DNA from: a virus
Length of the DNA: 38,910 bases
Reading direction: 5' to 3' (one strand)
Virus record (IMG/VR): IMGVR_UViG_3300028415_000010
Location: 1 to 38,910 of that record
The position numbers were made by a program, and so were the translations under genes. Every line of letters begins with the position of its first letter. Positions within the stretch are counted from its first letter, which is position 1. The notes below the pieces were generated by a model, which was not told where the DNA came from, did no database searches, and saw nothing but the letters and a program-made list of their open reading frames with translations. This document shows, one piece after another, positions 3,143-38,909 of the stretch.

Positions 3143-3628
3143 TTATGACCTCATACTTAGTGCTTTCATCAGGGTATCTACTGCACGTTTAACCCACCCT
3201 TTGCCGTACCTATCGAACTGGGCATACTGGGCATACTCATAGAGACGTAACTCAGTGAATACCCTTGCGGCTTGCTTGGGGTCTGACTGCTGGGCATGGC
3301 GGATAGTTGATGGCCCGAGGATTCCATCCACAGACGCACCAACAGTATCCTGGAGTAATGTCACAGCGGTATATGGCCCCATGTTGATCGCAGCGTCAGC
3401 CACGACCATGGCAAGGGGCGGGGGCAGCTCGTGCAACTTGAGGCCGAGCCAGAAGTCCTGCTCATAGATAGCCAGGGCATCTTCTGGACTCAGCTCTCGG
3501 ATATTGACGTTAGGGTAGGATGCGGAGGAGATTCCGTACTTGGTCAAACCTCCGGGGTCATGAGGGTCAGTGGACAGACCACCTTCCCAGGAAAGGATAT
3601 GCGCCAAGATCAATGCCTTGACGCTCAT
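3143..3628 (-). CDS. Endolysin, glycoside hydrolase 108 type muramidase
   Basis: A 161-residue peptidoglycan-cutting enzyme. The N-terminus carries the GH108 signature SWEGGLSTDPHDPGGLTKYG, with E15 as the expected catalytic glutamate. The remainder fits the C-terminal peptidoglycan-binding part of the ZliS/GH108 family, including the segment GPSTIRHAQ. No signal peptide is visible, so release would need a holin or other membrane lesion. AAGGAG precedes the ATG at 3628. T7 itself uses an amidase (gp3.5) for lysis; here a dedicated muramidase sits among the late genes, next to a membrane coiled-coil protein, as a lysis pair. Confidence 0.92.
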   Translation of the reverse strand: MSVKALILAHILSWEGGLSTDPHDPGGLTKYGISSASYPNVNIRELSPEDALAIYEQDFWLGLKLHELPPPLAMVVADAAINMGPYTAVTLLQDTVGASVDGILGPSTIRHAQQSDPKQAARVFTELRLYEYAQYAQFDRYGKGWVKRAVDTLMKALSMRS

Positions 3629-4059: not shown

Positions 4060-7000
4060 TTATTCTCCCTGTTTCTGCTTTAGAGCCTCCACTTCCTGCT
4101 TTAGCTCTTTGATTGCTTCGACCATGAGGCCCATCATGTTTCCGTAGGCAAGGCTGTAACGGTCAGTCTCGGCGTTGTACTTCACAGCCTCAGGCAAGAC
4201 CTTCAGCACTTCCTGGGCTATAAGACCCGTTTTGCGATCAGTCTCGACATCGGTTCTTTCATACGTAAAGCCGGTCAACTGGTCTACACGGTCAAGCGCC
4301 CCGTCGATAACTTTGAAGTCATCCTTAACGCGTTCATCCGAGTACTCCGTGATGCTACCATTCGCCGTGAAGTTACCAGAGACACGCTCAAAGGTGAACT
4401 TTGGGTAGATCCCGTTCCTGATCGTGAGGTCGCCTTTGTTCAGTTCAATACGGTTGTTATAGTTATCGTGGAAGATACGCATGTCTGCGTCATCACCGAA
4501 GCGAACCGACTTAGTGTTAGGCCACGTGGTGTGTCCCCCGACCGTGTCGTCGGCGTTCGCCCGGATGAAGTTACCAGCAGTCAGACCATTGAGCTTGTCA
4601 CTGTCTGCTGCCTTGGCACCGGTTCCCAGTTTCCCATTAAGGGTTGACTGGAGGTTCGTGATATCCGAGATCGCATGCCCATGGCCTACAGGAGTCTTGT
4701 CGTCTAGTGCATTCTGAAGCCCTGAGATAGCGGCAATCTCATGGCTGTGGCTGGAGTCAGCCTTACCATTCAGAGCCGTTTGCAGACCGGAGATGTTGCT
4801 GATCGAATGCCCGTGAGAGGTATCCGCCTTTGAGCTGGGGTTGAAGTTACCCGCATGCCAGATCAAGTTGTTATTGACCTTTAGCTCACCGCTACCGGAC
4901 GATCTCTCAAAGTTGAGATCATCATTGGTCTCGGTTCTTACCATCCATATACGGGTACCGTTGGCAAAAACGTCGAATAGAGCTCTGCCATTCTCATCCG
5001 CCTCGAAGGTGAACGTACGACCAACAGTGTTAAACGTCACATTATTCGTGAAGTGCACTGCACCATTGAACGTCTCAGTCGTATCCGTCCGAGCATAGCT
5101 GGATGCCTCAACACCTGACAATCGAGCTGAATCGTAAGCCGTAGCCGTAGTGCCAACCTTGCTGTCCAAGGCTGCTTGAAGGCCTGATACATTACCAATT
5201 GTGTGGTTGTGGCTATCGTTACCCACGGTCGCATTCAGGGTCACGTTACCCGAGCCATCGAAAGAGGCTGAACCATTGAGGTCGCCACTCAGAGATAGCT
5301 GGATGCTTGTTGCCCATTTACTGGCAGAAACCGCATTCGAGTTCAAACCGAGGTAGAGACCATCGGCCAAGCTTCGAGTAGGCACATTGTCTGAACCCGT
5401 GCCCACGTTCTTGGTACCGGCACTCCCAACCCCAAGGTTCGACCTTGCAGCAGAGGTACTGTTCACATCCGAGAGGTTGTCTCCCCGGCGTAGGTAGACC
5501 TGGGGAATAGGCACGGTGCCATAGATCAAGTCGTCGTTGACGATCAGCTCTTCGCCAACATCCACGAAACCAACCTGGGGCAAGGTACCTGGGACTGAGA
5601 TCACCCAGTATTTTCCCTTGTCTTCTATCTGAGGGCTCGGAATCGGTAGTGTCCCACCTGACGCATCATACTGAGAGATGTAAATCCGGGCACCGTTGAC
5701 CGCAGCTTGCGCTTGCTCTGCGTAGTGGCGTGAGGAGTAGAGACCGGGTTCGACCTCTTGTCCCCCAGGCTTGGAAGCCCACTCCATGGACTTTGCCTCA
5801 TGTGCCGCAGAGTTGGTCTCAGAATTGGATGCATTGCCTTCACTGGTGGCCGCAGCCGAGGCAGAACCTTGGGCCGAAGTCGCAGAATCTGAAGCCGAAG
5901 TCGCAGAACCTTGAGCGGCATCTCGAGAAGCTTCAGTGTCAATCTTCGCGTTTTGGGCACTGCCCTCGTAGAACTCCGCGTTAGACGCCGCGTTTACAGC
6001 AGCGGCGCTTGCATCCGCAGCAGTCGTGCGGTCTTGCTCAACCTGGGTTGCCGAGGAGACAACAGTATCTTTCAGCGTACCGGTGAGAACACGATCAGCC
6101 TCAGCTTTACGCGCCCAATGAAGAGCGGAGTATTGACCTGGGGCTACCGGAGAGTCTTCAGCTTTAGTAGCCCAATCAATCGCTTCGTAGGCCCAGTGTT
6201 TTGCACTGTAGGTGCCTGAGCTTTCTACGGTCTGACCGGGCGTCTTCTCTGCCCATTCGTGCGCCTTGGCCTCGAAACCAGCTGCACCAGTCTCTGCGTT
6301 CTCCGCTTGGGCCTTCGCTGTTTGAGCATCATCCCGTGCAGACTCAGCGTCTGACACCCGGCTCTCAACTTGAGCAGTATAGTTATAGGCTTCAGTCGCA
6401 GCTGTGATCGCATTCTGAGATTGATTAGAGGCAACGTCTCTGGCACTGACAGCTGCGTTTTTAGCAACCTGTGTTTCATCCTCCAAGATATTCACGTTGG
6501 TCTCGGCATTCAGAGCTGCCAAGGCCGAATCAGCAGACGACTGAGCTGAAGCAGCAGCCGCGTCTTTATCCTGTGAGATACTATCCCGCAGGTCAGAGTT
6601 AATGCCGTACTGGTCGTCCACGTATTGGCGGTTGGCCGCATCGGTATTAACCTGGGGATATGCCAGGTCTTTCAACCGACGATCAATCATTGAGAACGAA
6701 CCATCAGGCTCAGGCTTCACACTGTCCCGAGCCAGGTCGTATGCTTCCTGCATGGCGTAGAACACTTGGTTCGCACTGTCGTCCAAGTCACGCTCGGACA
6801 ACTCAGCGGCATTCACAAAGTCCACGGCGCGATGCTGCAGGAAGGTATTACGGTACACCGTGATGTCCGCAGGTTCGGTCAGAGCGTTGTCCAGTTTGAT
6901 AGTCGCGGCATCCACAAAGGAGAAACCGAACTCTTCCAGACCATTGATCGAGACCTTTACGTCATCCTCACTGATGTACTCAAAATCGAAGACAAACGTG

Positions 7001-33210: not shown

Positions 33211-33222
33211 CGAGGATGTGTT

Positions 33223-33886: not shown

Positions 33887-36703
33887 TTATGCAAAAGCGT
33901 AGTCCGACTTAATGACGGACTCGATGTCGAGACTTCCATGTTCAGGTAAAGACGGTACTTCCTCCCGGAGTTCAGGTGGGAGCTGGGCCAGGAACTCATC
34001 CCGGAGCTGCCCGAAGTAGTCATTCCGGTAAAGCTCAACGAAGGCCTCCCGGATAATCTGGAAGAAGCGCCCGGTGTTAGCAGCATGAACACCAAACGAG
34101 TCGTGGATAAGCGCGAAGCTCTTCATACCCTCTTGTACCGACATCGAGACCAGTTTCAAAAGGTGTGAGGAGTCCAGGCTATGTGTCACGTTGGGGCTGA
34201 TCGCGTTGCCAGCACGGACAGTGTCCATGTTCTCCTGCTCCTCACGGATGGAGAGCTGCATACGAGAACCGAAGAGCCTGGTGTTGATCTGACGGAGCTT
34301 GGACTGGCGGTAAGCCTGCATGACCGGGAACCCGAGGTTCGTTGTCCAGCGGACGGGACGACCCTGAGCCGCCACCAGTTTCGCAGTCTTCTGCATCCAC
34401 TCCATGATCTCCGCAGCCTTAAGCACGGTCTCACGGACATACTTGTACAGCAGACGGGCCATGGCACCAGCAGCCATGAAGCCATCCCCAGAGAATGGGA
34501 ACACACGGTTCGCCTTATCCTCGCTGTAGCCCTTGGACAACAGGTTATCCCTTTGCTTCTTGAGAGGGCCAAGGGTGTCCTCCATGACCTGCTCCCGGAA
34601 GCCATACTCCTTGGAGCCATACGGAAAGGTCATAACCGAGCGTTTCACATGCTTACGGGTAAGCCCGAACTGGAGCCACTCCCAGTAGGCCATGTGGTAC
34701 TCAAGCTCACGTTTAACCTCACGCTGTCCCTTGTTGAGCTTCTCATCGCCCATCACCTTGTTCAGGAACGCAGGCCACTTACGGTTATCCGCGCCTTTGA
34801 TATTCTTCAGGTAGTAGGTCTTCGCGTACTCTGCGGCCTTCCGCAGCGCCTCCTCACGAGACTCCGCGCCACCCACGGTCTCCTCCATGTGGGCTTGGAC
34901 CTTGTCCATGACCTCAGAGTAGATATCCTGAGGTTCATCCGAGGGAATCAAGTTCACCGCAGAGCCAGTGATTTCACACCGCAGCGCCATCCCCAGGTTC
35001 TGAAGCCCTGAGCAGGAACCATCCAGATCGATCGGCATGTGGGACACGTAGTCCGCGCCTTCAAGCTGGATACCCTTCATCTCGACACAGGCGGCGTATG
35101 CCTGGAATGGTTTGTCGGCCTCTTCCCAGAGACGGACTTCGATTGGGTCATCAGCACATGCAGTGAGTGTGGTCCAGTTCTTCTCAGTCCATGCGACACG
35201 CTCATCGAAAGACACCTTGTCCACGCCAAAGAGGTTGGCCACATGTACCTTGAACCACCACAGACCTTCAGGCCCGAGACGCCTACCTTCGGAGAACTCC
35301 AGCAGACCTTTGATCCAGTCCGCAGTCTGGGGGTTGAGGTTGGGCACCGCGTACAGGCGACCCCGGAAGTCCAGTTGGTGTGGGAAATAGATAGACTCGA
35401 AGTCCATGAACCGCTTGGCTGTACCCATGATGAGATTGAAGTTCACCCGTTGGCCTTTCCGAGAGACATTCTCATCGAAAGCCATAGCCGCTTGCTTGCG
35501 GTAGTTGTTCCAGATGACTTCCCGTTTCTCATACTCAGGATGGACCGGGGGTTTGGGCGGTTTGTTGAAGGGGTTGGCCTTGCACTCCTCCGACCACTTG
35601 TACACGAGTTTACGCTGGGCGCTGTGTTCCTTGCCCCACTCCGGTTTCTCAGGCACTGGGACATTCTCCAGTTCAGGCATCTTGGAGCCAGGAACCGTGC
35701 GGCCAATCTCCCGGAGCTTGCCATGCAGCGCAACCACATGCTTACGGATACGCCAAGGGGTCTCCTGTGCAGCGTTCAACGCACGGATTACCTCAGGCAT
35801 GTGAGCTGATTTTAGCTCTTCGAGATAGTCCCGAGATCGAGTCTTGACCATCCGAACCGGACGGTTATACGCGCTCAGATAGCCACCCCCGTGGCTCATA
35901 CCGTGGGACCAGCGAACCGGAGGGATGCACATGGGCTCCCGAACTGGGGTTAACTCAGCGACCTGCTCAACATTGTTCGTGATCCAATCGATCATCTCTT
36001 GGGTGGCAACGATGTGCTTCACAACCTTCTGACGACCATTCTTGTTTGGCTGTGCGATGTCCTTGACCTCAAACCTGGAGGCGAACAGGGAGGTAGCAAC
36101 CTCAACGAGGTATTGCCCGGTCTGGAGCTTCTTCTTCTCCGACCATGGGTCACGCTCCACGCTGGCCATCCGAGCGATACGAACAGCGGAGTCCATCTTG
36201 TGCTTGGGGTCGTTCTTCTGGTCGATGCGACGTTGGATGACCTTCAGCAGCTTGTCGTCCTCAGCCTTCAGACTCGCGAGAAACAGCTCATCTTCAATGG
36301 CTTTCCCAATGTTTACAGCCACTGTGGCGTATGGCGTTGGCTGTGAGATCGATGCAATGATGTTCTGGAGGGTCAGCATGGCTGCTTCACGAAAGCCTAT
36401 AGAGGCGATCTCAGCGTCTGCTAAGGCATGGACCGCTGGTTTACCTCCTTGGGATTTACCAGCAATCTCTTCGTGGAGGTTAATCAAGGCAACCGCAAGA
36501 TCACCGACCATGTGACCTATGAAACGGGAGCCATAGGATGTCTTGTCTTCATGACCCGCATCCCTACGTTTCTGTACCGCAGCCTCGAAGCGTTCCTTGC
36601 CTAATTCGTAAGACCTCCATTCAAGGTTAATCTGTTCCTGGTACAACTCAGGGTCAACCTGCATGTCGATGGTGAGGTCTGCACGTTGGTTCACATCATT
36701 CAT
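33887..36703 (-). CDS. Single-subunit RNA polymerase (T7 gp1-like)
   Basis: A 938-residue DNA-directed RNA polymerase (T7 is 883) that would transcribe most phage genes from its own promoters. Catalytic motifs: A with IDLDGSCSGLQ (T7 D537), B with RKHVKRSVMTFPYGSKEYGF (T7 K631 and Y639), and C with ALIHDSFGVHA (D868, T7 D812). RFMDFESIYFPHQLDFRGR and the terminal SDYAFA, equivalent to the T7 FAFA foot, are also present. The extra length lies mainly in the N-terminal half. GAGG lies 11 bases before the ATG. The gene is preceded by its own type of promoter and by the integrase terminator. Confidence 0.98.
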   Translation of the reverse strand: MNDVNQRADLTIDMQVDPELYQEQINLEWRSYELGKERFEAAVQKRRDAGHEDKTSYGSRFIGHMVGDLAVALINLHEEIAGKSQGGKPAVHALADAEIASIGFREAAMLTLQNIIASISQPTPYATVAVNIGKAIEDELFLASLKAEDDKLLKVIQRRIDQKNDPKHKMDSAVRIARMASVERDPWSEKKKLQTGQYLVEVATSLFASRFEVKDIAQPNKNGRQKVVKHIVATQEMIDWITNNVEQVAELTPVREPMCIPPVRWSHGMSHGGGYLSAYNRPVRMVKTRSRDYLEELKSAHMPEVIRALNAAQETPWRIRKHVVALHGKLREIGRTVPGSKMPELENVPVPEKPEWGKEHSAQRKLVYKWSEECKANPFNKPPKPPVHPEYEKREVIWNNYRKQAAMAFDENVSRKGQRVNFNLIMGTAKRFMDFESIYFPHQLDFRGRLYAVPNLNPQTADWIKGLLEFSEGRRLGPEGLWWFKVHVANLFGVDKVSFDERVAWTEKNWTTLTACADDPIEVRLWEEADKPFQAYAACVEMKGIQLEGADYVSHMPIDLDGSCSGLQNLGMALRCEITGSAVNLIPSDEPQDIYSEVMDKVQAHMEETVGGAESREEALRKAAEYAKTYYLKNIKGADNRKWPAFLNKVMGDEKLNKGQREVKRELEYHMAYWEWLQFGLTRKHVKRSVMTFPYGSKEYGFREQVMEDTLGPLKKQRDNLLSKGYSEDKANRVFPFSGDGFMAAGAMARLLYKYVRETVLKAAEIMEWMQKTAKLVAAQGRPVRWTTNLGFPVMQAYRQSKLRQINTRLFGSRMQLSIREEQENMDTVRAGNAISPNVTHSLDSSHLLKLVSMSVQEGMKSFALIHDSFGVHAANTGRFFQIIREAFVELYRNDYFGQLRDEFLAQLPPELREEVPSLPEHGSLDIESVIKSDYAFA

Positions 36704-36863
36704 AAATAATAAAGCCTCTAATTGGTCTTACAGTTAGGTCTTAAGGTTTGTCCTTAGGTTTAACCTAAGGTTTAGGTTCTTACTGTGTGATAATTACTGT
36801 TGGTTAAGACTTAAGGTCTGCAGTGGGTCACAACCCAAGGTGATAACCCAGGGTTAAACCTCC
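36704..36863 (-). promoter_or_regulatory. RNA polymerase gene leader with CCTTAGG palindromes
   Basis: A 160-nt leader without genes. CCTTAGGTT-T-AACCTAAGG at 36752-36770 is a perfect 9-bp inverted repeat. Related words (TTAGGTCTTAAGG, TTTAGGTT, TTAAGACTTAAGG) surround it, and AACCC-T-GGGTT and TGGGT-TGTG-ACCCA hairpins lie at the promoter-proximal end. A/T-rich TGATAATTACTG sits in the middle. It could hold operators, RNA structures, or an origin; T7 has its primary origin near gene 1. Confidence 0.55.
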
Positions 36864-36883
36864 TGTCCTTAGGTAAGCCATTT
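36864..36883 (-). promoter_or_regulatory. Phage RNA polymerase promoter candidate before the RNA polymerase gene
   Basis: Minus strand AAATGGCTTACCTAAGGACA, 18 of 20 matches to the main form. It would let the RNA polymerase transcribe its own gene. It lies between the integrase terminator and the leader. Confidence 0.75.
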
Positions 36884-36997: not shown

Positions 36998-38002
36998 CTA
37001 ACCCATGTGCTTTGTCACATCACGATTGCTGTAATGAACATACCGGGCCAGCGATTGCATGTTCTTATGACCAGTGACCTGTTGGACCATCAGCATGTTG
37101 GGAAGGGTCTTGGCATACTTGGTCGCAGCCGTGTGTCGGCAATCATGGAGTCGCAGATGCTTGAGGCCTGTCCGGTGCTTGGCCCTCCTGAAGCGTGTCC
37201 GCATGCCCTCATAGGTGATCTTGAAGACAGGCCCCTTGACACGACCTGAGGTCAGCTCTGAGAGCAATGCTCGGGCCTTCTGATTCAGGGGTACGGTACG
37301 TGCGGTTCGCATCTTCGTGTTGGCCTTGGGCAGCGAGATGTAGGAATCCTCAGGGTCATCAAGGTCCATCCATTCCACCCTCAGGAACATCAACTCAGAG
37401 AGTCGCATCGCTGTCTCGAGTAGTAGGCTGTACGCAATGCTGTACTCACCGCCCAGTTCCTCACGTAGAAGCTCCTGCTCCTTGGCCTTGTGGATGACGT
37501 CACGGCCATCCCCGGTGCTGGGTATCTTGATCATCTTGATCGGGTTCACGAGGTCGAACATCAGCTTTTCCTGGCGGAACCACTGGAAGATCGCTGAGAT
37601 GAAGAACAGCTCCTTCCTGACGGTCTCAGGACTGACGGATTTGAGCCTCGTGACCTTGTAGTCTTGGGCTGCTTCCGCGTTGAAGGACTCCAGGGTGAAG
37701 CCATCCAGTCGAATCTCCATGAGCTGGAGCATCTTGAGACGCTTGTGTTGGCTGGTCTTGCCGGTCTGCGTGGTCTGCTCCTCGAGCTTGGGCTTCAGAC
37801 ATTCCTCACGGTACTTGTGCAGGGCGTCAGCCATGGGGGTGCCCTTGAGTCGGTAGAAGGCTGAGACCTCGCGCTCCTTGGCCCAGTGTTTGGCCTCGGC
37901 TCGGGTGGTGAAGGTCTGACTCTTTTTAATAGTCTTCCCCGTGTTGGTTGTCCATCTGACATGCGCCCGGTATTTACCGTTGGTCTCTCTGGAGATATGC
38001 AT
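36998..38002 (-). CDS. int: Tyrosine recombinase, phage integrase
   Basis: A 334-residue site-specific recombinase. The N-terminal arm-binding part (MHISRETNGKYRAHVRWTTN) and a core-binding helical domain are followed by the catalytic domain. Active-site residues in order: R in ETAMRLSELMFL, K in the strand-turn near TKMRTARTVPL, H-x-x-R in LHDCRHTAATKYA, H in VTGHKN, and the nucleophile Y in SLARYVHYSN. It should integrate the phage at a site matching the tRNA-like sequence 126 nt upstream. I chose the ATG at 38002 with GAGGG upstream; 23 residues of a longer frame have no support. The gene has its own terminator and a likely sigma70 promoter. Confidence 0.95.
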   Translation of the reverse strand: MHISRETNGKYRAHVRWTTNTGKTIKKSQTFTTRAEAKHWAKEREVSAFYRLKGTPMADALHKYREECLKPKLEEQTTQTGKTSQHKRLKMLQLMEIRLDGFTLESFNAEAAQDYKVTRLKSVSPETVRKELFFISAIFQWFRQEKLMFDLVNPIKMIKIPSTGDGRDVIHKAKEQELLREELGGEYSIAYSLLLETAMRLSELMFLRVEWMDLDDPEDSYISLPKANTKMRTARTVPLNQKARALLSELTSGRVKGPVFKITYEGMRTRFRRAKHRTGLKHLRLHDCRHTAATKYAKTLPNMLMVQQVTGHKNMQSLARYVHYSNRDVTKHMG

Positions 38003-38127
38003 AATGACCCACCCTCTGTAAGGTTTGGTTGTTCCGTAAAGTTGGAACCTCGCGAATGGCGCGGGGCTCACTCAGGCCAACCGCCAGAAGGGCACCGGGC
38101 TTGTCACAGCTGGTTATGTCCCGCAGG

Positions 38128-38171
38128 CTTACAAGGCGAGGGTCAGGGTTCGAGCCCCTCTCCACCCACCA
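38128..38171 (+). other. tRNA 3'-half-like sequence, probable attachment core (attP)
   Basis: From CTTACAA (like the anticodon loop of tRNA-Val(UAC)) the sequence runs through GGCGAGGGTC, a T-arm AGGG-TTCGAGC-CCCT, and TCCACCC-A-CCA. A further 5' stretch (CAGCTGGTTA at about 38107-38116) recalls a D-arm, but the anticodon stem and 5' acceptor do not pair, so this is not a working tRNA gene. A tRNA 3' end next to integrase is the usual attachment site plan, where integration rebuilds the host tRNA. Confidence 0.65.
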
Positions 38172-38237
38172 AATCCCTTGGAAAACAACCACTTATACTA
38201 CCCTTGGTTACCCAATCTGACCGCTTGTTCCGTGGCA

Positions 38238-38257
38238 GAGTCCGTGAGTACGGACTC
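38238..38257. promoter_or_regulatory. Palindromic operator candidate
   Basis: GAGTCCGT-GAGT-ACGGACTC: two perfect 8-bp arms around 4 bases. It lies about 16-35 bases past the expected start of the promoter at 38280-38309. A single arm recurs at 38356-38363. The neighbouring MarR-like protein, a dimeric winged-helix type, is a natural candidate to bind it. Confidence 0.65.
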
Positions 38258-38279
38258 ATCGTCGTCCCTAAGTTCCTGA

Positions 38280-38309
38280 ATAATAAGCTTGTTACCGGGG
38301 TCGAGTCAA
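38280..38309 (-). promoter_or_regulatory. Sigma70-like promoter reading toward integrase
   Basis: Minus strand TTGACT (38304-38309), an 18-base spacer, then TATTAT (38280-38285): five of six matches to each host consensus box. Transcription should begin near 38273, pass the operator and tRNA-like region, and reach the integrase gene. Confidence 0.65.
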
Positions 38310-38397
38310 ACCCTTTACCGATTAAGACTCCACGATTTTGACCCGCGTAACCGCTACGGACTCTCCATCTGTGATGTCGCCCGGTTTTAACCTGGAC

Positions 38398-38429
38398 ATA
38401 AAAACCCGAGACCTCAGGAAAGCCTCGGG
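38398..38429 (-). terminator. Terminator after the MarR-like gene
   Basis: Minus-strand CCCGAGGC / GTCTCGGG forms an 8-bp stem with one mismatch and a 9-nt loop, followed by TTTTTATG. It lies 17 nt past the MarR-like stop and separates that gene from the integrase promoter. Confidence 0.82.
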
Positions 38430-38445
38430 CGGTTTAACATTGCTC

Positions 38446-38766
38446 TCAATCCGTGAGCTGTTTGATCTTCTTTGCGAGAGATTCCCCCCTTTCGTTCAGG
38501 TGCCAGCACTGCACCCTATAATCGTTCTCATCGGGTTCTACTCGGGCTACATCGATCCCGGCTTTCCCCGGCCTTGCACGATGAGTTAGATTCCGAAGGT
38601 TTCTGCTGGCGGACTGCTTAGACATATCCAGTGAAGATACCGCTTGGGATACCGTTAAACCGGGTTTATCCATTAAGTGCAGGAAGCACAGCATGGTTCC
38701 CACCGGTATGTCGTTCTCGTATTCTCGAAAGAGCTGCAGAACATTTATCAGTTTCTTATTGCTCAT
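38446..38766 (-). CDS. MarR-like winged-helix regulator
   Basis: A 106-residue protein. After an N-terminal helix (NKKLINVLQLFREYE), the fold shows a helix-turn-helix (LTVSQAVSSLDMSKQSASRN) and a wing with ARVEPDENDYRVQCWHLNERG, ending in a helix ESLAKKIKQL, the usual MarR order but without long dimer helices. It could regulate the lysogeny module; the operator palindrome lies 190 nt downstream. Its ATG at 38766 has GGTGA nearby, a weak site. It may be transcribed with the gene upstream, whose stop lies 29 nt away. Confidence 0.8.
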   Translation of the reverse strand: MSNKKLINVLQLFREYENDIPVGTMLCFLHLMDKPGLTVSQAVSSLDMSKQSASRNLRNLTHRARPGKAGIDVARVEPDENDYRVQCWHLNERGESLAKKIKQLTD

Positions 38767-38795
38767 AGTTATTCACCATTTCCTCACGGCTTAAC

Positions 38796-38909
38796 TCAGA
38801 GGTTAAGTCCGATTGCATATAGCTCACCGGCCTCGATAGCCGGGGCTCCATCCTTAGTATACCGCTCGACCTTATCCCTATCGTTTGTGAGTACCCAGCG
38901 CCCCACCTG
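38796..38909 (-). CDS. Partial gene, C-terminal 37 residues
   Basis: An open frame enters from the right edge and ends with TGA at 38796. The visible part includes RWVLTNDRDKVERYTKDGAP and AIEAGELYAIGLNL. The mix of charged and hydrophobic residues is protein-like, and it lies 29 nt upstream of the MarR-like gene in the same direction. The start is outside the window, so the product cannot be named. Confidence 0.5.
   Translation of the reverse strand, partial: QVGRWVLTNDRDKVERYTKDGAPAIEAGELYAIGLNL

Follow-up and report, generated by a model that had tools for sequence, protein, structure and literature searches.

A predicted integrase promoter inside the probable attachment site of a T7-like phage, and its separation from the integrase gene in two integrated Marinobacter relatives

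How T7-like phages can be temperate is an open question, and neither LUZ100 nor cyanophages have yielded stable lysogens (PMC10134795, PMC8776855). The locus analyzed here addresses this question. It lies in a viral contig of 38,910 bases (hereafter the window, meaning the whole stretch of DNA that was analyzed), which carries T7-like genes on the minus strand. In the original prediction, the segment between a MarR-like gene and the integrase gene was a lysogeny switch, in which a dimer bound to a palindrome represses the integrase promoter. The accompanying remark that switches in integrating T7-like phages are poorly described is fair, although a MarR-based switch has already been proposed for LUZ100 and its relatives (PMC10134795). 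The question here is what this segment is, and which protein acts on the palindrome.

The minus strand encodes a T7-like RNA polymerase (RNAP; 33887..36703, Pfam RNA_pol E 3e-98), as well as DNA polymerase, portal, capsid and terminase. A tyrosine integrase (Int) of 334 aa is encoded upstream of RNAP (36998..38002, minus strand; Pfam Phage_integrase E 4.5e-21), and its residues R200, K230, H286, R289, H312 and Y321 were invariant in the alignment. Beside int, a MarR-like winged-helix protein of 106 aa is encoded at 38446..38766 on the minus strand. A single-subunit RNAP, a tyrosine integrase upstream of it and a MarR-like gene beside the integrase are traits of temperate T7-like Autographiviridae, and all of them are present. 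Before marR, the 3′ end of a small conserved gene was found (38796..38909, minus strand), the start of which lies beyond the contig end. Its reading frame, QVGRWVLTNDRDKVERYTKDGAPAIEAGELYAIGLNL, resembles the C-terminus of a 62-aa gene preceding marR in Marinobacter prophages. An inverted repeat, CTTAACCTCTGAGTTAAG (38790-38807), overlaps the stop codon of this small gene.

The promoter, the perfect palindrome, the half-site, the MarR-like gene and the terminator described in the original prediction were all found in place on the minus strand. The sigma70-type promoter, TTGACT-18-TATTAT (38280..38309, minus strand), has 10/12 consensus matches and points towards int. The palindrome, GAGTCCGT-GAGT-ACGGACTC (38238..38257), is a perfect 20-bp inverted repeat with an N4 spacer, and no other match to it was found in the window, even when three mismatches were allowed. 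The upstream half-site is ACGGACTC at 38356..38363 (minus strand, where it reads GAGTCCGT). The intrinsic terminator of the marR unit (38404..38430, minus strand) has 12 pairs, and equivalents are present in the relatives described below. By consensus alone, the promoter is at chance level (one found, 1.8 expected in the region). Of 500 shuffles of the 443-bp gap between int and marR, 37 contained a perfect 8+8 inverted repeat; of 1000 shuffles, 33 contained an 8-mer occurring three times. The window as a whole has just two perfect inverted repeats of this kind, at 38238-38257 and 36752-36770. Taken alone, the promoter, palindrome and half-site are only mildly unusual.

Between the palindrome and the integrase gene stands the 3′ half of a tRNA-Val(TAC), from the anticodon loop to CCA (CTTACAAGGCGAGGGTCAGGGTTCGAGCCCCTCTCCACCCACCA; 38128..38171, plus strand), which the original prediction had missed. 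At the anticodon end, the first 17 of 17 bases are identical to Marinobacter tRNA-Val(TAC), after which the sequences diverge. The tRNA-Val(TAC) genes of three Marinobacter genomes share these 17 bases and resemble the phage sequence again at the 3′ end, whereas their T arm is different. In exact and 3-mismatch searches of the genomes, no host tRNA was found that carries the whole 44-base sequence. ARAGORN and Rfam did not call it, as is expected because it is only half a tRNA, and its identification as tRNA-Val rests on the comparison with Marinobacter tRNA-Val. Its position and orientation are the same as those of the tRNA-Arg att repeats in the relatives. We infer that this phage integrates into a host tRNA-Val gene.

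The relatives were obtained by a search with an RNAP alignment, which detected two proviruses with RNAPs 53 and 59% identical to that of the window. When viral contigs were scanned with Int, MarR or RNAP as single proteins, no relatives were detected, and a broad MarR alignment was too diverse for searching. The two proviruses are T7-like prophages of Marinobacter similis A3d10 (G004) and of genome G083 (IMGVR 2667527567 and 2887963325). Their integrases are 36-37% and their MarR proteins 55% identical to those of the window. They share with the window the gene family, the gene order, the place and spacing of the promoter, a tRNA attachment site and arm repeats. In contrast, their attachment site is tRNA-Arg(CCT) instead of tRNA-Val, their repeat sequences differ, the GAGTCCGT palindrome is absent, and M. 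similis has an extra 57-codon ORF. The RNAP match of M. similis A3d10 (L117-L119) is in pieces, with a stop and a frame change, and this prophage may be defective.

In both proviruses, marR is at the far end from int. The att repeats, of 45 and 43 bp, are identical within each prophage and correspond to tRNA-Arg(CCT), ending in the anticodon loop. In the host genomes of M. similis A3d10 and G083, a terminator, the promoter and an intact tRNA-Arg(CCT) come after marR, while int stands directly after a copy of the 3′ half of tRNA-Arg(CCT). Thus, marR, promoter, attP and int are contiguous in the phage and are split by integration, as judged from the prophage ends and the att repeats. The two relatives are integrated in the host chromosome, and the window is the unsplit form. 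Since int and the marR-promoter part are at opposite ends of both integrated relatives, each beside an att repeat, the window segment is, by comparison, probably the attP, with the promoter and palindrome in its MarR-side arm.

The comparison also bears on the promoter. Its place and 18-bp spacing are kept in the two relatives, at 121 and 131 bp from the core versus 107 bp in the window. When the G083 promoter was slid along the minus strand of the window, the best place overall was 38309 (19/30). A promoter scan around marR of both relatives gave exactly two promoters, one before the marR unit (TAGACA-16-TATAAT) and one towards the tRNA (TTGACG-18-GATAAT or TTGACG-18-GATACT). Furthermore, no such promoter was found between the att core and int in the two prophages. 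Because the promoter is conserved and none stands between core and int, these results support that the promoter at 38309 is a real int promoter, which would be lost from int on integration. Thus far the original prediction agrees with our analysis: in this integrating T7-like phage, a marR gene that has a terminator of its own precedes a host-type promoter pointing towards int, and two Marinobacter prophages have this promoter at the same place.

The part played by the palindrome was the next element of that prediction, which took it to be an operator: a dimer bound about 16-35 bases past the start would block the int promoter, the MarR-like protein of the phage being the candidate for this dimer. 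Several features suit this reading. A protein modelled as a MarR-type winged helix is encoded next door, a dimer could be accommodated by the 20 bp of the palindrome, in which the centres of the half-sites are spaced by 12 bp, and a palindrome of this size stands just past the promoter. However, the two relatives have no palindrome of this sequence, in spite of a 55% identical MarR. In addition, no further copy of the palindrome precedes marR or RNAP within the window, and one half of it fits the pattern of arm repeats. Among viral contigs, the palindrome occurs in 26 stretches, and homologs of six of this phage's proteins were found near none of them. We consider the operator reading unlikely, and the claim that the palindrome is the switch of the integrase was not borne out in this comparison.

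What the half-palindrome fits is a direct repeat, CACGGA, with a period of 12 (38225..38246, minus strand; starts at 38246 and 38234), which probably represents arm-type sites and overlaps one half of the palindrome. The units are 75 and 63 bp from the core, and in M. similis the repeat GTGTGCAAT, also with a period of 12, is 73 and 61 bp from its core. A 6-mer repeat of period 12 at that place in the window arm was obtained in 17 of 20000 shuffles, a figure which is not a clean probability, as the geometry was picked after seeing M. similis. No clean period-12 repeat pair was found in G083. The sequence ACGGAACAA is present in both flanks of the core, at 38225-38233 on the MarR side and at 38029..38037 (minus strand) in the integrase-side arm, and the 443-bp gap contains five copies of ACGGA, which flank the core on either side. 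Likewise, the Marinobacter prophages share ACGCAAA and TTGTGCA across both arms. One palindrome half is a unit of the probable arm repeat, and the other half is an inverted extra copy of it. The original prediction had not noted ACGGAACAA in both flanks, nor that the element is an attP arm, from which it follows that integration would part the promoter from the integrase.

The arm sites of a tyrosine integrase are expected to recur in both arms at fixed distances, and the repeats are read here as sites of this type. To judge from the sequences, the palindrome more probably belongs to the docking sites of the integrase than forms the switch site of a repressor. This favours sites for integrase or excisionase over a MarR operator; the same sites could also autoregulate the promoter. 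Against the arm-site reading count the inverted pair only 4 bp apart, which is unusual, the difference in repeat sequence between the window and the relatives, and the lack of a clean period-12 pair in G083.

If an excisionase is concerned, it might be the MarR-like protein itself or another small phage protein, which would act as excisionase and repressor at once through the ACGGA sites. The gene for excisionase, xis, is often a neighbour of int. This place is held by marR in many temperate T7-like phages, and no separate xis was identified among the window genes checked, the annotation covering part of the genes. Winged-helix excisionases that act in both recombination and transcription are known (PMC11963761). 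The ACGGA sites, however, are not conserved, and we regard this dual role as improbable.

Finally, the inverted repeat might act as RNA, forming a hairpin in the int leader that protects the mRNA or damps translation. An 8-pair hairpin of -13.8 kcal/mol can indeed form just past the predicted start. Its z-score is only -1.46, however, and the 150-base leader folds no better than its shuffles (z -0.02); moreover, the leaders of the relatives have no hairpin of that strength. A function as hairpin is thus very improbable.

We next considered the MarR-like protein apart from this palindrome. The gene matched Pfam MarR_2 with E 2e-5, below the curated cut-off, and PHROG 9665 ('transcriptional regulator') with E 5e-22. 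Its AlphaFold model is a confident winged helix (pLDDT 84.5), for which the top PDB matches in Foldseek were MarR-family regulators. The closest viral models were phage MarR proteins, e.g., cyanophage P-SSP2 gp0.7 (TM 0.85). This protein is a good candidate for the repressor. Relatives of the phage MarR that stand alone are encoded in G083 (L133, ~4630-4960) and G093 (L134, ~3260-3590), with no relative of the phage RNAP and no close relative of int nearby. Of these, the G093 copy has a recognition helix similar to that of the window protein.

As for the site of such a repressor, the authors of LUZ100, citing earlier work, placed the proposed MarR sites around the promoter that precedes RNAP (PMC10134795). 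In the literature, we found no operator that had been mapped for such MarR control in T7-like phages. In the window, the RNAP leader contains a perfect 19-bp palindrome, CCTTAGGTTTAACCTAAGG (36752..36770), adjoined by CCTTAAG/CTTAACC motifs. It is a better candidate for the repressor operator than the palindrome at 38238-38257. A repeat resembling a phage RNAP promoter, AAATGGCTTACCTAAGGACAGGA, lies upstream of RNAP (36861..36883, minus strand). The repeat AAATGGCTTACCTATGGATA has six strong copies on the minus strand, at 36883, 33242, 32678, 28496, 20839 and 787, and none on the plus strand; the copy at 36883 is the one just mentioned upstream of RNAP, and all six are probably promoters of the phage RNAP. 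Its core, TACCTAAGG, is also present in the RNAP leader of a Marinobacter prophage. In both Marinobacter relatives, the RNAP leader possesses a host-type promoter, TTGACT-16-TACTAT, and an array of ~16-bp repeats (TTACTACTAGTTC and variants). The arrays are situated between the phage promoters and the RNAP start (L015 4440-4663 and L016 1030-1259). In shared-word tests, no word was common to the marR promoter and its upstream region, the int promoter with the arm, and the RNAP leader. The 10-mer CTCGACCCCG is common to the int promoter and the RNAP leader and is also found at 33214.

Taking these observations together, we consider it fairly probable that the segment is an attP combined with the int promoter, that its repeats are Int arm sites with a possible role in autoregulation, and that integration splits off the promoter. 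In unintegrated phage DNA, host RNA polymerase would start at about 38272, and the transcript would cross the MarR-side arm, then the tRNA-Val core and lastly the arm on the integrase side before reaching int. Int would bind the direct repeats of both arms and carry out recombination between the core at 38128-38171 and the tRNA-Val gene of the host. Since the palindrome lies ~16-35 bases past the start and overlaps the arm sites, bound Int or excisionase could shut the promoter off. After integration, int would be at one prophage end without the 38309 promoter. At the other end would be marR, terminator, promoter and palindrome, with the promoter antisense into the restored tRNA gene. Because of this orientation, something would be expected to silence the promoter; silencing would be useful in the prophage, and this keeps alive the reading of the palindrome as a MarR operator.

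Integration itself might also be part of the switch in this family of temperate T7-like phages. With attP between the promoter and int/RNAP read-through, recombination would disconnect them without any repressor, excision or circle formation would restore the connection, and MarR would hold the RNAP leader only. We regard this as possible but doubtful. If true, the order promoter, attP, int would be a layout rule by which integration shuts down its own recombinase. The Marinobacter prophages, with mapped attL and attR, are a tractable system in this regard: in them the int promoter is seen severed from int by integration, and they direct the search for the repressor site to the RNAP leader.

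Among known systems, LUZ100 (PMC10134795, OP329100) is similar to the window in the order marR, tRNA sequence, int, phage promoter and RNAP, and in having a host-type promoter for int, which in the window is a predicted one. However, LUZ100 co-transcribes marR and int from P3, which is a trait of LUZ100 and not of the whole group. With a marR terminator and a separate conserved promoter inside attP, the window seems unlike such a single transcription unit. In addition, the MarR of LUZ100 is only 27% identical to that of the window. In Pasto (L006 8491-8573) and a Limnohabitans phage (L013 4689-4777), an annotated tRNA-Leu lies between int and RNAP, unlike LUZ100 and the window, in which the tRNA sequence is between marR and int.

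Separation of a promoter from its integrase is found outside T7-like phages. In ICEclc, a conjugative element without such a MarR-int module, Pcirc is active in the closed circle. Once ICEclc is integrated, Pcirc is across the element from int; the relatives of our phage likewise have the promoter at the other end. The ICEclc promoter, at the far right end (102,729), was assigned to the int gene (intB13) at the left end (PMC2892462). In the KplE1 prophage, where the intS promoter and the att region overlap, Int and excisionase repress this promoter, and negative autoregulation has been demonstrated (PMC2951348). Relative to the core, the KplE1 promoter is on the same side as int and remains linked to it in the integrated state, whereas the window promoter would be parted from int. 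In mycobacteriophage BPs, the attP position makes gene expression depend on integration; the attP of BPs is tied to the repressor gene (PMC4557955), whereas the attP of the window stands between int and its promoter. T7-like phages with MarR-integrase modules and tRNA att sites (LUZ100, pelagiphages and cyanophages) are already known, as are promoters split by integration in other elements. What is new here is the combination of these traits in a T7-like family linked to Marinobacter, in which int has a promoter of its own within attP and of which two integrated examples are described.
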